A program made the translations under genes and the position numbers. The notes beneath the pieces were generated by a model that did no database searches, was not told the origin of the DNA, and saw only the letters and a list, made by a program, of their open reading frames with translations. From NCBI RefSeq assembly GCF_019063845.1, contig NZ_CP077683.1, positions 2,356,001-2,420,000 on the forward strand: a DNA stretch of 64,000 bases, given 5' to 3'. This stretch comes from Geomonas subterranea. Lineage in GTDB: Bacteria; Desulfobacterota; Desulfuromonadia; Geobacterales; Geobacteraceae. Positions 47,344 to 56,886 of this stretch are shown one piece after another. Within the stretch, counting starts at the first letter, position 1, and each line of letters starts with the position of its first letter.

Positions 47344-47808
47344 ATGAGAGTACTGGTAATCTCCGACAGCCACGGCAACTACGCCCATGCCTTCAAGGCG
47401 CATCAGCTTGCCGGTCCGGTCGATCACATCGTTCATCTCGGGGATGGCTGCGAGGACGCTCGCATGATGGAGGAAGTGCTGGAGGTGCCGGTACACCGGG
47501 TGGCGGGCAACTGCGACCTCGACAGGCAGGTACCGGCGGAACTCACGCTGGAGTTTGGGACGTGCCGGTTCCTGCTGACCCACGGCTATCGCCAGCAGGT
47601 GAAAAGCGGGCTGTCCCAGCTGATAGGAAGGGGAATGCAACTGGGGGCGTCGGTGGTGCTCTACGGCCATACCCACCACGCGGACGTCCGGTCGACGGAC
47701 GGGATGCTGCTGGTAAACCCGGGCGCACTGAAGGAGGGGCTACCCGGAACCTACGCCATCGTCACGGTCGAGGGAGACGCAGCCAGCGCCGAGATCTTCC
47801 CTCTCTAG
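47344..47808 (+). CDS. YfcE/MJ0936-type phosphodiesterase
   Basis: 154 residues from the ATG at 47344 with GAGG four bases upstream. Calcineurin-like fold with ISDSHGN, HLGDG, GNCD, LTHG and YGHTHH metal-binding motifs. Members hydrolyse phosphodiesters with manganese; the natural substrate is unclear. The last bases overlap the stop of the convergent gene. Confidence 0.9.
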   Translation: MRVLVISDSHGNYAHAFKAHQLAGPVDHIVHLGDGCEDARMMEEVLEVPVHRVAGNCDLDRQVPAELTLEFGTCRFLLTHGYRQQVKSGLSQLIGRGMQLGASVVLYGHTHHADVRSTDGMLLVNPGALKEGLPGTYAIVTVEGDAASAEIFPL

Positions 47809-48194
47809 CAACCGCAGCCGCAGTTGTGGCAGACCTTGCGGTTCTCCGCGTCCGGGGCGACGGTCTCCGGCGCGAAGGCGATGCGGTTCACCGCCCGCCT
47901 GATATCCTCCTGCAGGTCCAGTCGCGGACTCTGCCCGATCACGTGCCCCACGCAGACGTTGCTGATGCCGTCCGACGGCGAGGCGATGCGCACCGAATTC
48001 AAAAGGTCGCCGTAGCCGTTCACCTCGATCACCTGCCCCGGGTCCTCACCCAGTTCCAGGGTGATGCCGAAGCGCTCCAGTTCCTGGGCCAGCTCAGCGA
48101 AAAATATATCGAAGGTAAATCCTGTCAGTACCGCTTCCCACTCCGGCTTGCTCTTGCTACGTCCGTAGCAGGTCAATCTCATCTGTTTTGCCAT
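47805..48194 (-). CDS. Conserved-looking protein with Cys-rich C-terminus
   Basis: 129 residues, not recognised. The N-terminal part looks like a compact alpha/beta domain (LTCYGRSKSKPEW, FFAELAQELERFGITLELGED). The chain ends in CHNCGCGC, five cysteines or histidine within eight residues, a likely metal or Fe-S site. ATG at 48194. It overlaps the convergent phosphodiesterase stop by a few bases. Confidence 0.65.
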   Translation of the reverse strand: MAKQMRLTCYGRSKSKPEWEAVLTGFTFDIFFAELAQELERFGITLELGEDPGQVIEVNGYGDLLNSVRIASPSDGISNVCVGHVIGQSPRLDLQEDIRRAVNRIAFAPETVAPDAENRKVCHNCGCGC

Positions 48195-48307
48195 GCTGTG
48201 TTAACTCCTAAAACCAAGGGGCTAGGGGCTGGGGGCTGGTAACACCGCCCTTCCCTTCTCAACGCCTGTCCCTGTAATAAATCGTTCTCTCGTGGCAGCA
48301 GCCGACC

Positions 48308-48356
48308 AAGTCCCAAGTCCCAAGTCCCAAGTCCCAAGTCCCAAGTCCCAAGTCCG
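48308..48356. repeat. Tandem heptamer repeat AAGTCCC
   Basis: Six perfect copies of AAGTCCC and a seventh ending in G, followed by other C-rich short repeats (CCCCTGG, CTAGTCC). It lies in the 200-base gap between the Cys-rich protein and the response regulator genes. Copy number is likely to vary. Confidence 0.85.
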
Positions 48357-48394
48357 AAGCCCCTGGCCCCTGGCCTAGTCCCTAGTCCCTGCCC

Positions 48395-48781
48395 TTAACT
48401 CCCCGCCGCCTTTCTCTGCATGGAGCTGAAGATCATGTCCAGCACCGCCTTCTGCTTCGCCTCATACTTGTTCAAAACGGCCAGACAGGTCCCCATCGGA
48501 AACTGTTCGTGCAGATAGTCCGAGTCCCGCCCGGAAAGGATCACGATCCGGTTCTTGTCGATCCCCACCGACAGGGCGTAGCTGAAGATCTTGGACCCGT
48601 CAAGGGTTGGCATCTCCAGGTCCACCAGCAGGAGGTCGACTTTACCCTGCCTCAGTATGGTCAACGCCAGCAGCGGTTCGGTGCAGGTTATCACGTCCAA
48701 CAACGGGTAAAGCGCCTGTATCTTGTCCTTCAGCGCTCCCACGAAGGCCGCATCGTCATCAACGATCAGAATTTTTCCCAT
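48395..48781 (-). CDS. Single-domain response regulator
   Basis: 128 residues. Receiver domain with acidic pair VDDD, phospho-acceptor in LLLVDLEMP, the Ser/Thr switch in ILSGRDS and a Lys in LNKYE. The usual lysine-proline is not clear. No output domain. ATG at 48781 with AGG five bases upstream. It is the last gene of the conduit operon, 16 bases after the ABC_sub_bind gene. Confidence 0.82.
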   Translation of the reverse strand: MGKILIVDDDAAFVGALKDKIQALYPLLDVITCTEPLLALTILRQGKVDLLLVDLEMPTLDGSKIFSYALSVGIDKNRIVILSGRDSDYLHEQFPMGTCLAVLNKYEAKQKAVLDMIFSSMQRKAAGS

Positions 48782-48797
48782 CCATACCTCTATGTAT

Positions 48798-49715
48798 CTA
48801 TTTAAGCACCCGGGTCGCTGCGCTGAGCACCGGGAAGGGAACATTCAGGTCAAGCAGCCGCGCCGCTTTCATGTTCACGATCAGATCCACCCGCTTCGGC
48901 GTGGCCACCGGCAGGTGCGACGCTTTCTTCCCGCTCAGGATGCGGGCCACGTATTCGGCGGCGAGTTGCCCCTGCTCGACAGGGTCCGCCTCCAGCGAAA
49001 TGAGGGCCCCCTTGTGCGCCGCACCGGGCATTTGCGATATCACCGGGATCTTCAATTCGTTGCAGCGGTGAACGATCTTTTCGAAGGAACGGCTTCCCGC
49101 TGTGCATTCCGTGACATAGACACAGTCGACCCTGGTGGCGTAGAGGGTAGCGAGCGCCGTGTCCACCCCGGCAACAGAGGCGACGTTGGTTTCCACCAGC
49201 ACGATCCCCGACTGGGCCGCGATCTTGCGCGCCTCCTTGAGTTGCACCAGGGCACCTTCCTCGCGGCTGGCGCTGATGATGCCCAGGGTCTTGATCGGCT
49301 TGAGTTCCATGGCGGTCTTAATCAGCGTGACCAGGGGGACCTTGGAACTGACCCCGGCGCAGTTGCGGCCGCTGGAGGTCATGCTTCTTGCCACCCCCGT
49401 CTCGACCGGGCCGTACACATCTGCGAAAACGACCGGGATATCCTGCGCTTCACGCAGGGAGGCCAGCGCGGCGGAGGCGCCGTAGGCGACGATGACATCG
49501 GCGCCGATGGCGTTGAACTTTCTGACGCTGTTGGACCAAGAGATGAGGTCGGGGTTGGGGGTCTGCGTGATGACCTCGACGTTACTCTGATCGTACCCCT
49601 TCTGCACCAGTGCCTTGACGAACGCCCTGTGGGCGTCCCGGTAGCGCGGCAGGTCGCAGGTCAGCAGTGCAGCGACAAGTTTTCCGCCCGCACGGGAGTC
49701 CGATGCGGGGATCAC
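48798..49715 (-). CDS. ABC_sub_bind-type periplasmic binding protein
   Basis: 305 residues from the GTG at 49715. Type I periplasmic-binding fold as in PF04392: GADVIVAYGASAAL, VVFADVYGPV, SGRNCAGVSSKVPL and LGIISASREEGA. From the GTG there is no complete signal peptide, but the same frame continues upstream through IRSILLLLLLLCAV to a stop, with no ATG, GTG or TTG. An ATC at 49761-49763 lies six bases after AAGGGG and would start a normal signal peptide (KTLIRSILL...), giving 321 residues. No permease gene is nearby. Confidence 0.8.
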   Translation of the reverse strand: MIPASDSRAGGKLVAALLTCDLPRYRDAHRAFVKALVQKGYDQSNVEVITQTPNPDLISWSNSVRKFNAIGADVIVAYGASAALASLREAQDIPVVFADVYGPVETGVARSMTSSGRNCAGVSSKVPLVTLIKTAMELKPIKTLGIISASREEGALVQLKEARKIAAQSGIVLVETNVASVAGVDTALATLYATRVDCVYVTECTAGSRSFEKIVHRCNELKIPVISQMPGAAHKGALISLEADPVEQGQLAAEYVARILSGKKASHLPVATPKRVDLIVNMKAARLLDLNVPFPVLSAATRVLK

Positions 49716-49777
49716 CGCGCAAAGCAGTAGCAGCAGCAGTATGGAACGGATCAGTGTCTTGATACGCTACCCCTTGG

Positions 49778-52036
49778 TCACCACTTGGCCGCGAGGGCGG
49801 CGACGATGGCGTGGACGGTGCCGCTGTAGCTCTGGTACGCGGACTTGAGCTCGTTGTAGTCGTTGAACGTGTATTCCAGCGTGGTGGAAAGCGCGCTCGT
49901 GAAGCGGTATTCGCCGCGGGCGGAAAGCGAAGTGATCACGGTGTTTTGCGCGGTGATCTCCTTGATGCCGTCGGTACTGCTGGTGAGCGAAAAACTGGTG
50001 TCGCTCGGCGTGAAGGCGGCGGAGGATCTGATCTGCTGCGCCGCTACCGCGAGATCGCTTTTCTCGCTTAGCGTATAGTTGGCATTGACGCCGTAGACGT
50101 GGGACCTGCTGGAAAACTGGGAAGCGGCCTCGCTACCGACAACTACACCAGTGAAAAATACGCCCTGCTCGACCTCCTGGTGCAGGTACGAATAGTTGGC
50201 CCCTACAGTGAGTCCCCGGAACGGCACCCACCACGCACCGATGTTCGCGTTCTCGCTGTTGGTGCTCCGGGAGGTTATGGGAGCCAGGGAGAAGGAGAGC
50301 GGCTCGAAAGGATAGTTCACCAGGTACTTCCGCACCTCGTCGTTTTGATCACGGCGGAAGATGGCGTGGCTGGTGAGCCCCCAGCGGTTGTTGAGCGTGT
50401 AGGTCGCCAGCAGTTTCGCCTCGTGGCGGGTTTGGAAGGATGCACCGTAGGCAGGATGATCGGCGCTGGCATAGCTGTAGGTGGCACTGGTCCTCAATCC
50501 CTTCACGGGTCGATAGTAGGCCGACAGCGACCCGGTGTGGGTCGAGGTGCTCTCCGGCAATCCCCAGGTCATCTCCGTGGGGAGGTCGGTCACGTTGTTT
50601 CTGCTCAGGAAATCGCCGCGGTACTCGCCAACGAGCGCGAGATGCAGCGTGGGACGGTAGGAGATGGTGCCGGTTACCAGGTCGCGAGTGGTTTCAATGG
50701 GCGCTTTGGCGGCTATGACAGGATCAGCAAAAGCGGTGTTGTTGAGAGGATCGCGTTTGTTGTGGTCGATCTCCTGGCGCCGGTATTTGACAGCGAAACT
50801 GTACTCGCGGCTGGGTGTGTAGATCAGGTCTCCCGCGGCGTTTTGCAGGTAGCTCTTCATGTGACGGGCGCCGGTGGTGTCGGTCAACTCGGAGAGGTTC
50901 TCGCGCTGCTCGAAGCTGTACGAGCCGGAGCCGACCAAACCGCCCGCCAGGGAGGTATGCAGCTTGATGGTGTGGGAAAAGAAGCTGCTGTCGGGGTTTT
51001 CGTTGTGCTGCCGCGTCCCACCGGTGAAATCATCGGCGCCGTTGAAGCGGTGGCGCTCCTGGTAAAAGTCAACCGGTGTCGGCAGTCGGTCCTCGAAATA
51101 ACGCACCTTAAAGTCGTAGACCAGGTCGACCGGCCCCAGGTGGGAGTCGAGCCCCACGCGCCCTTCCTGGACCTGCTGGTCGACACCGCGGCGCTGGGCG
51201 TAGATGAAGTTGGTGGCACCCTCGAAGGCGGTATCGGCGAAGCGCTGCTGGATGGTCCCTTCTTTGACATAGCGCCAGTAGCCCAGGTTCACGTGCAGGG
51301 GAAAGTTGTGCAGCCGGTAGCGGAAGTCGGCCCGGTCCTGCACCACGCTCACCCCGTAGTTCGCCACCGGGTCCTGAACAGGTCTGTATTCTGCCAATGA
51401 AGTGCGGTCGTCAGTCCTGCCTGTTTCGAACTTTTGGGGAAACAGCAGCTCCCGGTCCAGGTTGTGGTACAGCGATTCCGTCCTGAGATGGAGGCGGTAG
51501 TCGCCCTTGTAGTCCATGAGCAGGTCGGCGTGGTAATCGTTCTCGTTCAGGTAGAAGCCTTCCAGCTCGAGGTTGGTGTCCTTCTCCATGTGCCGGTAGA
51601 AGAGCCCGCCGTTGCGGCTGGACTTGAGAAAGCCGTACTCCAGGGCGCGGCCGCGGTAGTCATCTCCGAAGACGAAGTTGTAGCCGAGCGAACCGCCCTT
51701 TTGCTCCAAGACCTCCACCTGGCGCTCGTCCTCCGGCAGCGGCGCTCCCTCGACGGGCGGCTGCGCAGCAGGTTCCTCGGCGGCCGGGGGGGGCGGCTCG
51801 ATGCCAACGGCAGGGGGCTGCTCCATTGTCGCGGGAAGGGTCTCGTCCGCGGGCTGCTCCTCGTTTGTGACGGTGCCGGCAGGTGCGTCGGCGGCGCCAT
51901 CCTTTTCCGCAGCGGCCGGGGCCTCCTGGCTCGCAGCCGGCACCGGCTCCAGGTCCGCGGCAGCCACGCCCCCGGCGGCCAGCAGCAGAAGCAGCAGAGG
52001 CGAGACGACGGTCGATATGAGGGGTTTTTCCACCAT
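49778..52036 (-). CDS. MtrB/PioB-like outer-membrane beta-barrel
   Basis: 752 residues. Signal peptide 1-27, then a Pro/Ala/Glu-rich linker to about residue 105, then alternating beta-strand pattern to the C-terminus, typical of the barrel that sheaths a multiheme cytochrome across the outer membrane. GSLGYNFVFGDDYRGRALEYG opens the barrel. The N-terminal CxxC of classical MtrB is not seen. GGAG lies four bases before ATG. The gene follows the cytochrome gene by 14 bases. Confidence 0.8.
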   Translation of the reverse strand: MVEKPLISTVVSPLLLLLLAAGGVAAADLEPVPAASQEAPAAAEKDGAADAPAGTVTNEEQPADETLPATMEQPPAVGIEPPPPAAEEPAAQPPVEGAPLPEDERQVEVLEQKGGSLGYNFVFGDDYRGRALEYGFLKSSRNGGLFYRHMEKDTNLELEGFYLNENDYHADLLMDYKGDYRLHLRTESLYHNLDRELLFPQKFETGRTDDRTSLAEYRPVQDPVANYGVSVVQDRADFRYRLHNFPLHVNLGYWRYVKEGTIQQRFADTAFEGATNFIYAQRRGVDQQVQEGRVGLDSHLGPVDLVYDFKVRYFEDRLPTPVDFYQERHRFNGADDFTGGTRQHNENPDSSFFSHTIKLHTSLAGGLVGSGSYSFEQRENLSELTDTTGARHMKSYLQNAAGDLIYTPSREYSFAVKYRRQEIDHNKRDPLNNTAFADPVIAAKAPIETTRDLVTGTISYRPTLHLALVGEYRGDFLSRNNVTDLPTEMTWGLPESTSTHTGSLSAYYRPVKGLRTSATYSYASADHPAYGASFQTRHEAKLLATYTLNNRWGLTSHAIFRRDQNDEVRKYLVNYPFEPLSFSLAPITSRSTNSENANIGAWWVPFRGLTVGANYSYLHQEVEQGVFFTGVVVGSEAASQFSSRSHVYGVNANYTLSEKSDLAVAAQQIRSSAAFTPSDTSFSLTSSTDGIKEITAQNTVITSLSARGEYRFTSALSTTLEYTFNDYNELKSAYQSYSGTVHAIVAALAAKW

Positions 52037-52050
52037 CCGGCTCCTTTCTG

Positions 52051-53052
52051 TTACTGGCGCAGCGTGCCCCTACCGGTGATGGCCGGAGAGGGGGTATCGG
52101 TGCCATGCACCTGGGAGTGACAGTCCGTGCAGCGGTTGACGAAGAGCTGCTTCAGCCCCGGCGTGTTGGTGGCGAGGTGCCCGGTGTGGCACTGCATGCA
52201 CAGAAACGGCATAGCCGCGTTCAGGAGGTGGTTGTTCACCGAGCCGTGCGGGGTGTGGCAGTTCATGCAGTTCTCGGTCACGTCGCCGTGCTCGAAGGCG
52301 AAGGGCCCCTGCTTCTCCATGTGGCACCTGGTGCAGGTTTCCTTGGAGGTGTTCCCCCGGAGCAGGCGGTCCTGGGTCGAGCCGTGCACCTCGTGGCAGT
52401 CCACGCAGAACATCTTCTTCTCCCGCAGCGGATGGTGCGAGAACAGGGAATTCTCCGCCTGCACCTCGGGGTGGCAGCTAAAGCACATCTCCGACATCTG
52501 CTGCCGGCTCACCTTCTGTTGAGGCCCCTGGTGCAGCTTGTGGCAGTCGAAGCAGCTGACGTCGTGCAGCGCGTGGGGACCTGCGTTCCAGTGGGAAAGC
52601 ACGGGGATCGACGCGGCGGAATGGCACTTCAGGCAGATCAGAGACTGGGCCTGGGGGGGGAGGTGCATGATGTCGAGGAAGGTCGAGGTGTCGCACTTCT
52701 TCTTGAGGCGGGTGTTCTCCTCGCGGTCATCCCCCAGGTGGGCGATGGCGAGGCTGCCGGGGCCATGGCACGATTCGCAGTTCACCAGCGGCAGGCCGGT
52801 CTCGGGCTTGATCTGCTCGCCGTGCACGCTGTGGCTGAAGTCGTCGGTGATCTTGTCGTGGGCGTGGCACTTGGAAACGCAGTTGCTGGTGCCGACGTAC
52901 TCGGCGTCGAGCCGCCCCACGATCATCTTCTCGTAGTCGCGGATGGGGAGGATGGGTTTGCTCTGCTTCAGTTCGGCGCAGGAAAGACAGAGAAGGGGTA
53001 AAAGCGCCATGAGGATGACGAGTTTGCCGCGGCGTGGAAGACGTGCTGCCAT
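52051..53052 (-). CDS. Multiheme c-type cytochrome, DmsE/MtrA-like
   Basis: 333 residues. N-terminal signal with cysteines at 22 and 25 (possible lipid anchor at Cys25; the lipobox CLSC is imperfect). Nine CxxCH heme motifs start at residues 92, 140, 167, 190, 216, 240, 262, 285 and 308, and a CX3CH at 58-63 could bind a tenth heme, giving a decaheme protein of MtrA type. It likely sits in the periplasm or inside the barrel encoded next. The ATG immediately follows the stop of the ABC ATPase gene (TAGATG). Confidence 0.88.
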   Translation of the reverse strand: MAARLPRRGKLVILMALLPLLCLSCAELKQSKPILPIRDYEKMIVGRLDAEYVGTSNCVSKCHAHDKITDDFSHSVHGEQIKPETGLPLVNCESCHGPGSLAIAHLGDDREENTRLKKKCDTSTFLDIMHLPPQAQSLICLKCHSAASIPVLSHWNAGPHALHDVSCFDCHKLHQGPQQKVSRQQMSEMCFSCHPEVQAENSLFSHHPLREKKMFCVDCHEVHGSTQDRLLRGNTSKETCTRCHMEKQGPFAFEHGDVTENCMNCHTPHGSVNNHLLNAAMPFLCMQCHTGHLATNTPGLKQLFVNRCTDCHSQVHGTDTPSPAITGRGTLRQ

Positions 53053-53886
53053 CTATTCCCCCCTTATCCCCTTGGTCGTGGTGTAGATGAAGCCGCGCAC
53101 GATCGGATTGTCGCTTTTCTTTATCTCGCGTGGCGTGCCGATCTCGACCACCGAGCCGCCGTGCATCATGGCGATCCGGTCCGAGATGTACAGCGCGAAG
53201 TTCAGGTCGTGGGTCACGATCACCGTGGTGTTCCTGGTGCTCTCCTTGAGCTTCAGGATGGTGTTCGCCAGCTCATCGGTGGTGACCGGGTCGAGCTCGG
53301 CGGTCGGCTCGTCGTACAGGATCAGGTCGGGGTTCATGGCCAACGACCGCGCGATGGCGACGCGCTTTTTCATCCCGCCGGAGAGTTCGGAGGTGCGCAG
53401 CTCCTCCTTCCCCACCAGCCCGACCATCTCCAGCTTCTGCTTTATGATCTCGCGGATCTGCTGCTCCTTGCAGACCCTCTTCTCGCGAAGCCACAGCCCC
53501 ACGTTCTCCCCCACCGTTAGCGAGTTGAACAGGGCCGAGGACTGGAACACCATGCTGTAGCGGTAATCGTGCGCCCCGGGGTTGGCACCCGCGCCGAAGA
53601 TGGGGAGATCGTCGATGTAGATCTCGCCGCTGTCCGGCGTTTCCAGCTTCACGATGTGTTTCAAAAGCACGCTTTTCCCGGTGCCGGAGGGACCGATGAT
53701 ACAGAAGGTTTCCCCCGCCTGGATCTCGAGGTTCACGTCCTTGAGCACGTGGTTGGGCCCGAAGGACTTGTTCAACTGTTCGATCCTGATGCCGACCCCC
53801 CTGGTGTCGTGCAGGTTGACCGGCTGCTGGCCGTTCTCTGAGTTAAAGAAAGAACCTGGGAGGCCGTGTTTAAGCTTCTCGAACAT
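53053..53886 (-). CDS. ABC transporter ATPase, MlaF-like
   Basis: 277 residues from the ATG at 53886 (AAGGAT upstream). After a variable 40-residue N-terminus come Walker A GPSGTGKSVLLKH, the Q-loop, LSGGMKKRVAIARSL signature, and Walker B LILYDEPTAELDPVTTDELA. The HDL switch is present. These features fit the MlaF group that drives lipid transport with MlaE and MlaD. Here no permease or MCE protein is adjacent. First gene of the conduit operon. Confidence 0.88.
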   Translation of the reverse strand: MFEKLKHGLPGSFFNSENGQQPVNLHDTRGVGIRIEQLNKSFGPNHVLKDVNLEIQAGETFCIIGPSGTGKSVLLKHIVKLETPDSGEIYIDDLPIFGAGANPGAHDYRYSMVFQSSALFNSLTVGENVGLWLREKRVCKEQQIREIIKQKLEMVGLVGKEELRTSELSGGMKKRVAIARSLAMNPDLILYDEPTAELDPVTTDELANTILKLKESTRNTTVIVTHDLNFALYISDRIAMMHGGSVVEIGTPREIKKSDNPIVRGFIYTTTKGIRGE

Positions 53887-53983: not shown

Positions 53984-54013
53984 ATACTACCAGAGTTGTG
54001 CGCCCGCTGGCAA
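53984..54013 (-). promoter_or_regulatory. Candidate sigma-70 promoter of the conduit operon
   Basis: Minus strand TTGCCA, 18 bases, TAGTAT, about 100 bases upstream of the ABC ATPase start and downstream of the small membrane protein gene. It suggests the five-gene conduit operon is transcribed separately from the histone-deacetylase group. Confidence 0.45.
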
Positions 54014-55114: not shown

Positions 55115-56059
55115 CTACTGTTCCAGTTGCTGCAGTGTGGCCTTGGCCTCTTCGAACTCGGGGTTGATCTTCAGGGCCTGCCGCAGGTAAAAGCGAGCGT
55201 CGCCGGCGGCGCCCAGGTCCTTGCAGCAAAGCGCCAGCAGGTACGGGATCTCGGCCATCGGGAATTCGAGCGCGAACCAGGCGTCGGCCATCACGTCGTT
55301 GAGGATGGCGGTCGCCTCCTGGTACCCTCCGTCCTCACGCAGGGCCATGGCGCCCGCGATGGCCTCCAGGTAGTCCACGGCCGGGACCCGGGGCACCTCG
55401 CCCCGCTCGATCCGCTCCAGGCGCGCCCTCAGCTCGGCCTGGGCGGCCGCCTCGACCTGCGGCATCAGCGCACTCCAAAGCGACGCCGCCTTGTCGTACT
55501 TCCCCAGCAGGAACGACACTTCGGCCAGGGTGGTAAGGCAGCGGGGCTGGTCGCCCGCCAGTTCGCGCGCCCGGTCCAGGTACCCCTCCGCCTTGAAGAG
55601 GGTGACCGTGGAGAGGTGCAGCGCCGAGAAGCGGCAGGCCTGCTCCAAAAGGGTCGCCCCGATCTCCAGCGGGAAGTGCGCGTTCTCCGGTTCCATGAGG
55701 GCGAAGATGCGCAGCAGCTTCACGCGCCGCTCCAGGTAGGGAACCTCGACGTCCTTCTCGCCCAGCATCAGGATGTGGCTGGCCAGCTCCGAGACGTAAT
55801 GGGGATACCCCTTGAGCATCTCCGCGTAGAGTTCGCAGTAGCGGCAGCCGGGATCCGTGCGCAGGGCCTGGTACAGGCCGCGCCCGACGGCGTCATAGCC
55901 GGGAAGCTCCCCGTCAAGCGCCTTGTAGTCCTCATCCAGAAGCGGGACCGGCTCCGGCCCGATGGTGAAGGAAACCTTGCCGTCCAGCCCGGTCACCGTG
56001 GTGCCCGCCGGAGGACGGTAATAGGTAACGCCTGCGAGGGGGGTCATATCTCTTTCCAT
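55115..56059 (-). CDS. TPR-repeat protein, unknown
   Basis: 314 residues from the ATG at 56059 (AGGAG eight bases upstream). The C-terminal two-thirds is helical with TPR-like units, for example AEVSFLLGKYDKAASLWSAL, YQEATAILNDV and AGDARFYLRQALKINPEFEEA. The N-terminal 60 residues (TYYRPPAGTTVTGLDGKVSF) are not TPR and are of unknown fold. No signal peptide. It likely acts as a binding scaffold for the neighbouring proteins. Confidence 0.68.
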   Translation of the reverse strand: MERDMTPLAGVTYYRPPAGTTVTGLDGKVSFTIGPEPVPLLDEDYKALDGELPGYDAVGRGLYQALRTDPGCRYCELYAEMLKGYPHYVSELASHILMLGEKDVEVPYLERRVKLLRIFALMEPENAHFPLEIGATLLEQACRFSALHLSTVTLFKAEGYLDRARELAGDQPRCLTTLAEVSFLLGKYDKAASLWSALMPQVEAAAQAELRARLERIERGEVPRVPAVDYLEAIAGAMALREDGGYQEATAILNDVMADAWFALEFPMAEIPYLLALCCKDLGAAGDARFYLRQALKINPEFEEAKATLQQLEQ

Positions 56060-56079
56060 GAAACGCACTCCTTTTTCAG

Positions 56080-56886
56080 CTAACGCTCCCGTCCCGGAAA
56101 CGTGTTCACACCGGCGTGCACGCCGATGGTCTTGTAGATGCGCACCTCGTCCCAGGGTTCGTCGAGGATGCCGTCGTGGATGGCCCAACTGCGCCCCTGC
56201 ACCGTTTTTTCCATCCCGGGCCGCCTGAAGGGGGTGGAACCGTCCAGTCTCCGGTACAGCTCCCCGCCCGGGGCGAAACCTGCATCGATGTCCTGCATCA
56301 GCCTCTTGCCGACCACGTAATCGAAGCCGTACCCCTCGTAGCGGATCGCGTTGTCGTAGCTGAGCGGCTCCGCCACGATGAGCTGCATGCCAAGGCTCGC
56401 CACCAGGCGCTCGAGGAGCGGCAGGAACTCCCCGAACATCCTCAGGCCGCGCCGGGTCTGGTTCGGAAAGAGCCCCGCCTCCATGGCGCGCTGTTCTTCC
56501 GCGAGGTTGCGCCCCAGGGTGGCGAACATGTTGTTGCAACCCCGCTCGTCCATATCGACGTCGAAACGGGGCGCCCCCGGATCGGCTATGGTGCAGTAGG
56601 AGAGTTCCATCTGGCCGTGGTGCGTGTCGCACAGGTCCAGCACGAAGGCGGGATCGCGGTCGTCACGGCCGCGGCGCGCGACCAGGCGCAGGAAGCGGTG
56701 CCCCTGCGGGGCGATCACCTCGACGCTCCCTCCTCCCTCCCGGACCATGTCCCACAGGCGCCCGGGCAGAAGCTCACCGTAGATCGCCTCCTTTTCAGCC
56801 GCAGGCAACCGGTTGATGTCGTACAGGGAGAAGAGTTGCCTCCCCCCGCTGTCCCTCAATACCTCATGTCCGGTGTCGTTTGCCAT
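56080..56886 (-). CDS. Unrecognised protein overlapping the deacetylase gene
   Basis: 268 residues, cytoplasmic, no family recognised. The C-terminal part contains IRYEGYGFDYVVGKRLM, which faintly recalls an acetyltransferase-like segment but without a clear acetyl-CoA loop. Its start overlaps the end of the deacetylase gene by 23 bases, which points to tight coupling and shared function. It is followed by the TPR gene 20 bases later. Confidence 0.6.
   Translation of the reverse strand: MANDTGHEVLRDSGGRQLFSLYDINRLPAAEKEAIYGELLPGRLWDMVREGGGSVEVIAPQGHRFLRLVARRGRDDRDPAFVLDLCDTHHGQMELSYCTIADPGAPRFDVDMDERGCNNMFATLGRNLAEEQRAMEAGLFPNQTRRGLRMFGEFLPLLERLVASLGMQLIVAEPLSYDNAIRYEGYGFDYVVGKRLMQDIDAGFAPGGELYRRLDGSTPFRRPGMEKTVQGRSWAIHDGILDEPWDEVRIYKTIGVHAGVNTFPGRER

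Follow-up and report, generated by a model that had tools for sequence, protein, structure and literature searches.

What brings the ATPase of an ATP-binding cassette (ABC) transporter and a periplasmic binding protein into one gene unit with a predicted outer-membrane electron conduit? The question is raised by five genes at positions 48395-53886, all on the minus strand, of a 64,000-nucleotide stretch of the Geomonas subterranea genome (contig NZ_CP077683.1, positions 2,356,001 to 2,420,000; hereafter the window), which encode, in order of reading, an ATPase, a multiheme cytochrome, an outer-membrane barrel, a binding protein (SBP) and a receiver-only response regulator. An initial annotation of the window had listed these genes as an MtrA/MtrB-type pair together with an ATPase resembling MlaF and a binding protein of ABC type, and had suggested that lipid handling or signalling might be linked to the electron pathway. 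To our knowledge, it is an open question how cells put such conduits together and provide them with a suitable lipid bilayer, and the cargo of Mla-type systems other than that of E. coli is debated. The answer towards which we lean, with modest confidence, is that an envelope operon has partly split, leaving its conduit half at this locus and, as the other half, a distant set of Mla transporter genes.

Conservation of the gene unit

The unit recurs, in the main intact, throughout the family to which the window belongs. Among 35 loci from this family (loci, genomes and families bear our own handles L, G and f) the SBP gene adjoins the barrel gene in all, the cytochrome gene adjoins the barrel gene in 34 and the ATPase gene lies upstream in 34, the single miss for both of the latter being L068, which is cut by a contig end. 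The genes that flank the unit are equally conserved inside Geobacteraceae, which leaves other families and the loci labelled as Nitrospirota to supply the evidence that counts. Across all loci with room for the neighbour, the cytochrome adjoins the barrel in 114 of 114 (34 from the window's family, 27 from two other Geobacterales families, 36 from the rest of the class, 15 labelled Nitrospirota and two from RIFOXYD12 bins), and the SBP adjoins the barrel in 102 of 111, including nine of 11 labelled Nitrospirota. These loci are not a random draw: the first 97 of the 114 were picked by the barrel (a few by the SBP) and the last 17 by the cytochrome, whose adjacency to the barrel in these 17 follows from that choice; matches to barrel and SBP also guided the choice of the class loci. 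On the neighbour counts across loci, chance adjacency of the unit's genes was rejected, and the gene linkage is real. The composition given by the initial annotation is conserved in relatives, and the linkage of ATPase and binding protein to the conduit pair, which it had wanted checked in related genomes, holds there.

The undivided run and a probable split transporter

The clearest view of what the ATPase gene belongs to is offered by relatives outside Geobacterales, where the gene between ATPase and cytochrome encodes an MCE-domain protein (PF02470 in L137). In L137, eight genes on one strand read TPR-WPR-MlaE-MlaF-MlaD-cytochrome-barrel-SBP, WPR being our label for an MlaE neighbour that begins like a signal peptide and has numerous repeats containing WP. 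For this protein, which has 495 amino acids in L137 and 535 in L163 (L163:4977-6584), Pfam, NCBIfam and PHROGs gave no match, and its PDB sequence matches are at chance level. The undivided order MlaE-MlaF-MlaD-cytochrome-barrel-SBP was found in 14 of 116 profile-scanned loci (L106, L123, L126-L137) from eight other families of the class (f5, f8, f18, f19, f20, f22, f23 and f24). TPR and WPR genes open the run in 13 of the 14, the remaining one (L127) beginning at MlaE near a contig end, and in L132 MlaD is split into two pieces. Median gaps, measured from profile matches, are 43.5 bases from MlaE to MlaF, 1 from MlaF to MlaD, 184.5 from MlaD to the cytochrome, 128.5 from there to the barrel and 69.5 from barrel to SBP.

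In Geobacterales the same set is found in two places. MlaF lies beside the conduit in 34 of 35 loci of the window's family and in 22 of 27 from the two other families, while MlaE and MlaD do so in none of these 62. The window's genome has a single MlaE (one PF02405 match genome-wide; TIGR00056 score 233, cut-off 212.2), located 487 kb from the ATPase gene and outside the window, in a WPR-MlaE-MlaD cluster with 36 bases from MlaE to MlaD and no ATPase gene; the MCE protein (MlaD) reaches 58.8 bits with PF02470 (cut-off 25.1). A second close MlaF was not found in this genome, and a search with the ATPase's own profile returned the unit's protein at 568 bits and the next of 65 matches at 163. Eight further MlaE loci from the order comprise six with WPR-MlaE-MlaD and no MlaF, five of which are from conduit-bearing genomes and one from G040, which lacks a conduit, and two from family f4 with MlaE alone. 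As for the remaining components of an Mla system, two PF04333 matches mark MlaA genes away from the unit, and no PF05494 match indicative of MlaC was found in the window's genome, in a search whose controls in E. coli and Caulobacter were positive.

The ATPase (53053-53886, minus strand; 277 amino acids, PF00005 match) cannot be named from scores. It falls below the cut-off of the best 25 of 192 matched NCBIfam models, that for MlaF included, and its best PDB sequence matches, 7d06 (162.9 bits) and 6z5u (162.8 bits), are labelled just ABC transporter ATP-binding protein, although we take both to be Acinetobacter MlaF; PDB chains that do bear the name MlaF score lower (148.4 for Pseudomonas, 130.3 for 6xbd). 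Two results speak against an MlaF identity, namely the score of 159.9 against the NCBI MlaF equivalog NF008809, for which the cut-off is 441, and the presence of amino-acid ABC ATPases at 160.8 and 159.7 bits, barely under the best PDB score. Similarity alone does not settle the identity, and it is gene order and phylogeny that do. In a tree of 51 rows, made with a quick method, rooted at the midpoint and with long branches flagged, the window's protein stands among the MlaF proteins of undivided runs in a group of 34 rows (support 93 in the Shimodaira-Hasegawa-like approximate likelihood ratio test, SH-aLRT), and a support of 98 separates undivided-run and canonical MlaF together from eight further ABC ATPases encoded in the genome. 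From tree and gene order, the ATPase is best read as an orthologue of the MlaF of undivided runs, and it very probably serves the distant MlaE and MlaD. The initial annotation had described an ATPase without permease; the better reading is that a transporter has been split and that this is its MlaF, given that the sole MlaE stands with MlaD and without an ATPase elsewhere in the genome, and that the parts form one co-directional run with the conduit in eight families. The suggestion in that annotation of a link to lipid handling pointed in the right direction.

The transporter concerned appears to be a subtype of its own. Twenty Mla loci from class genomes that lack a clear conduit, taken from the best MlaE matches listed (the barrel is unmatched in 19 of these genomes and weakly matched in G059), all have the order MlaE-MlaF-MlaD with a short MlaD match, and none has SBP, WPR or conduit genes in the fetched stretch, which for L292 ends directly after MlaD. 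In L281, MlaA-like and MlaC-like proteins, judged by eye, follow MlaD. The differences of these loci in MlaD length and in neighbours set the conduit-linked Mla apart as a separate subtype.

The conduit pair

The cytochrome (52051-53052, minus strand; 333 amino acids) is a predicted lipoprotein of the DmsE/MtrA decaheme family, scoring 265.2 bits against TIGR03508 (cut-off 192.2), and its profile matches PDB 6r2q_A at 191 bits. The initial annotation had wavered between nine and ten hemes; the protein has nine CxxCH motifs and, as a putative tenth heme site, one CX3CH motif, the first in the chain (C58-H63). Counting fragments, 112 of the 116 cytochrome rows from relatives have the CX3CH form, and the motifs and the lipobox Cys25 are invariant in 24 aligned relatives. 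The barrel (49778-52036, minus strand; 752 amino acids, no cysteine) is a putative MtrB/PioB-like outer-membrane beta-barrel that has no Pfam match itself and matches NF041027 weakly (105.8 bits, cut-off 350); PF11854 (MtrB_PioB) is matched by 16 of 32 aligned relatives, the best at 9.4e-12, the window's barrel not being among them, and a PDB sequence search with the barrel profile returned nothing useful. We read the two proteins as a pair of the DmsE/MtrA plus MtrB/PioB type, and the predicted conduit probably moves electrons across the outer membrane.

A separate observation concerns the barrels of class members outside Geobacterales, 34 of 36 of which contain a CX2-4CH motif (L106, L110, L128, L130, L137 and L138 among others), which suggests that a heme may be carried by the barrel in these organisms; the counts in the remaining sets are 0/35, 0/26, 0/12 and 0/2.

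The binding protein

The SBP gene (48798-49763, minus strand) encodes a periplasmic protein of the ABC_sub_bind, TrpX-type kind (PF04392, 138.6 bits; mean predicted local distance difference test score, pLDDT, of the predicted model 95.5). Its open frame runs upstream of the GTG, and the likely start is ATC at 49761-49763 (minus strand) or a following CTG, with no ATG, GTG or TTG preceding the signal-like peptide. ATC is kept in ten close loci (L036-L045, with an additional TTG in L041, 13 codons upstream), and CTG occupies the start position in L047-L049, L051 and L052. A cytoplasmic location was considered and rejected, as the GTG start conceals a signal-like peptide behind a non-standard start. 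The choice of start also bears on the gap after the barrel gene, which is 14 bases counted to ATC and 62 counted to the downstream GTG. The close packing described in the initial annotation as gaps of 0-62 bases therefore stands, its upper bound rests on the GTG, and with the ATC start the range becomes 0-16.

The closest solved relatives are the ABC_sub_bind proteins 3lkv, 6hni and 3lft. Their (T/S)DP(V/I) and DN motifs read YGPV and EC in the window's SBP, and of 44 relatives 16 retain the D of the first motif, while in most of them E-S/C stands in place of DN; with these motifs so changed, the SBP probably has a ligand different from those of the solved relatives.

More can be learned from the company that the SBP keeps. 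In family f6, seven conduits have no adjacent SBP, and all seven genomes have an SBP after MlaE-MlaF-MlaD elsewhere. Of 14 f6 SBP copies away from the conduit that were examined, at least three others (in G049, G064 and G069) being left out, 13 follow MlaE-MlaF-MlaD (L145, L146 and 11 of L269-L280), WPR being seen among them in 12 and TPR alone in L279; the same holds for the SBP in L143 of f25. Several such genomes have retained a conduit-side SBP as well (e.g., G054, G063, G051, G061, G065 and G183). In an SBP tree of 91 rows, the f6 conduit-side copies make up one group and most of the Mla-side copies another, and both groups join proteins from undivided runs; some joints of this tree are weak, L143 is unplaced, L144 sits on a long branch and the root position is not fixed. 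The SBP gene is thus conserved next to the Mla genes as well as next to the conduit pair, and whether it serves the Mla system we judge to be evenly balanced. Two tandem SBP-like genes at L147:6037-7957 lie far from the conduit-linked SBP in the tree.

The response regulator

The last gene of the unit (48395-48781, minus strand) encodes a receiver-only protein of 128 amino acids (PF00072) with D54 and K105 invariant in 13 aligned sequences. It follows the SBP in 33 of 35 loci of the window's family (L065 is cut and L070 lacks the gene) and in 24 of 27 other Geobacterales loci, against none of 38 other class loci; as regards the link to signalling entertained in the initial annotation, it looks like a later addition to the unit that is limited to Geobacterales. 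No histidine kinase was detected with Pfam among the scanned genes next to the regulator or the SBP.

Proposed functional coupling and its alternatives

How could these parts work together? MlaF would hydrolyse ATP under the distant MlaE-MlaD, and phospholipids or another lipid would be moved between inner and outer membrane. The SBP, in the periplasm, would most likely be a carrier or ligand-binding regulator of the Mla system, filling the role of MlaC, which the genome search did not find. Electrons would cross the outer membrane through the decaheme lipoprotein, around which the barrel would form a sheath. Joint production could then match the lipids around the conduit to the flow of electrons, or supply the assembly of the conduit, with the receiver protein probably tuning the system in Geobacterales. 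From gene order, we consider a functional coupling of lipid transport and conduit slightly favoured.

A number of observations weigh against this view. Neither half needs the other everywhere. In a genus of eight genomes (g13) no barrel match was found, and G040 of this genus still has WPR-MlaE-MlaD. Nine loci from family f4 (L148-L156) have TPR, SBP and regulator genes without cytochrome or barrel, L148 and L156 keeping the ATPase; the regulator of L151 is cut by a contig end, and none of the nine genomes has a barrel match. The eight f4 SBPs tested fall inside those of conduit-bearing Geobacterales in the tree, which points to secondary losses of the conduit. Loci labelled Nitrospirota have the conduit pair, or the trio with the SBP, and Mla genes nearby in none of 15. 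On the conduit side, no other open reading frame (ORF) with two or more CxxCH motifs, hence no MtrC, was found in the 64-kb window. On the Mla side, the genome holds a 569-amino-acid ORF with three MCE domains (G000:C1:1456625-1457680; L160-L162), a possible second client of the lone MlaF. Finally, the solved relatives of the SBP bind small ligands, and the Geobacterales SBPs form a block of their own outside the undivided-run proteins in the tree, whose root is not fixed.

Several of these points would also be expected if nothing but inheritance held the genes together, that is, if a single event in an ancestor of Desulfuromonadia had brought Mla genes and conduit trio together and each continued to work alone in operons that are slow to break. 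The occurrence of either half alone in some genomes, the confinement of the receiver gene to Geobacterales and the conservation of unrelated flanks to the same degree as the unit inside Geobacteraceae are in line with such a history. However, the run has been retained in eight families outside Geobacterales, the MlaF of Geobacterales has stayed beside the conduit and not with MlaE-MlaD, and the f6 SBP occurs with either half or with both. We regard uncoupled inheritance as possible, though rather unlikely.

A further explanation centres on the SBP, which might be a dedicated partner of the conduit that binds a small redox-active or aromatic ligand (a flavin, a quinone or a humic fragment) and then acts either by docking on the cytochrome or by signalling the ligand's presence to the receiver, the Mla genes sharing the promoter and nothing else. 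The conduit-SBP trio in Nitrospirota-labelled loci that have no Mla genes fits this idea, as do the nearest solved relatives, which bind aromatic amino acids and whose motifs are altered in the SBP. Yet the SBP is retained without a conduit in f4 and follows the Mla genes in f6, and the scanned neighbours of regulator and SBP include no histidine kinase, all of which makes this explanation improbable. An extension of the coupling that we favour would go further and unite MlaE-MlaF-MlaD, WPR, SBP and conduit in one trans-envelope machine, where the MCE transporter delivers to the outer membrane a lipid-soluble redox carrier (e.g., quinone) or a modified lipid that the conduit charges or discharges there; we hold this to be quite doubtful, and if it were true, lipid transport and extracellular electron transfer would be a single process. 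A plain amino-acid importer of the TrpXYZ type that had shed its permease and come to lie next to the conduit is highly improbable, for although the SBP matches PF04392 and NF041285, its score against the latter TrpX model is 135.5 bits with a cut-off of 390, its DN motif is changed, the ATPase groups with MlaF and not with the eight other ABC ATPases compared, and a Pfam scan of the five genes of the unit and of four neighbours showed no importer permease.

The conduit-Mla-SBP linkage matters in several ways. It suggests that outer-membrane lipid traffic and electron export run together in these soil and sediment relatives of Geobacter. With a run that joins Mla genes and conduit in eight families, and what is apparently the sole MlaF lying inside the conduit unit, the question becomes open to gene-removal tests. 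The mtrAB pair recently reported from Desulfobacterota also gains a likely set of partners, including a binding protein that stands beside the pair in Nitrospirota-labelled genomes as well.

Relation to known systems

Like the pair predicted here, the conduits MtrAB, MtoAB, PioAB and DmsEF place a DmsE/MtrA decaheme cytochrome beside an MtrB/PioB-type barrel; the present unit differs from them in a cytochrome that is a predicted lipoprotein with CX3CH as its first motif, and in having MlaF and SBP as neighbours. It differs from MtrCAB in that no extracellular MtrC/OmcA-type gene lies within the window. According to the portion of a 2014 survey of Pcc clusters available to us (PMC4245776), no atypical heme motif had been found in Mtr cytochromes up to that year and Pcc and Mtr proteins are phylogenetically unrelated; the words ABC and transporter are not used in that portion. 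The Geobacter Pcc (OmbB-OmaB-OmcB) and Ext clusters and OmcK/GSU2204 also combine a porin with a multiheme cytochrome. Identity of the present pair with OmcK/GSU2204 or Pcc was rejected, scores against the GSU2203 and GSU2204 models being below cut-off (NF041028, 236.7 of 325; NF041027, 105.8 of 350).

The closest reported case seems to be in the same class. As far as the consulted sections of the report go (ISME J 2025, PMC12133095), mtrAB occurs in Desulfobacterota, the pair of Desulfuromonas acetexigens is expressed on an electrode and mtrC lies elsewhere in the genome; the word 'ABC' does not occur in its main text. This is also an mtrAB pair in Desulfuromonadia, and it and the unit's putative conduit are probably of the same family. 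With canonical Mla (MlaFEDB-MlaC-MlaA) the conduit-linked subtype shares MlaE, MlaF and MlaD orthologues, and it differs in a longer MlaD, in WPR and TPR neighbours and in an SBP rather than MlaC at the end of the run. A screen for cathode oxidation, in the excerpt that we draw on (PMC9226611), brought up an alphaproteobacterial NDUFA12-mlaD operon, in which an MCE gene stands beside a respiration-linked gene; the proteins are unrelated to ours and mlaD itself is non-essential there, which makes this an analogy alone. A 2024 survey demanded at least 15 hemes per neighbourhood (PMC11475568), so this unit alone would not qualify. Among the matches listed in open-licence PubMed Central literature, we found no description of an Mla- or SBP-linked conduit, and nothing on Mla or SBP linkage in those on the genes GSU2201-2205. 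The novelty lies not in the conduit itself but in its lasting association with an SBP and with a distinct MCE lipid transporter.

Gene packing, transcription signals and neighbouring genes

Within the unit, the ATPase stop codon TAG is followed at once by the cytochrome ATG (a gap of 0), and gaps of 14 and 16 bases separate cytochrome from barrel and SBP from regulator. A pattern scan, the counts of which are near chance (four promoters against 1.8 expected, eight terminators against 9.1 expected from shuffled sequence), detected no minus-strand terminator-like site inside the unit, which is weak evidence that it is free of the transcription stop considered in the initial annotation. Ahead of the ATPase gene, the same scan marked a weak promoter-like site of the sigma-70 type (53984-54013, minus strand; TTGCCA-18-TAGTAT, 9/12), likewise near chance level.

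Further upstream lies the gene of the TPR-repeat protein that opens the undivided run in relatives (55115-56080, minus strand; weak TPR matches), with two small genes between it and the ATPase gene. Just past the regulator gene, the 7-base tandem repeat CCAAGTC is present in 8.3 copies (48306-48363). Beyond it, a 129-amino-acid protein without Pfam match (47805-48194, minus strand) ends in CHNCGCGC, a C-terminus that is identical in all 33 homologues from loci of the family.

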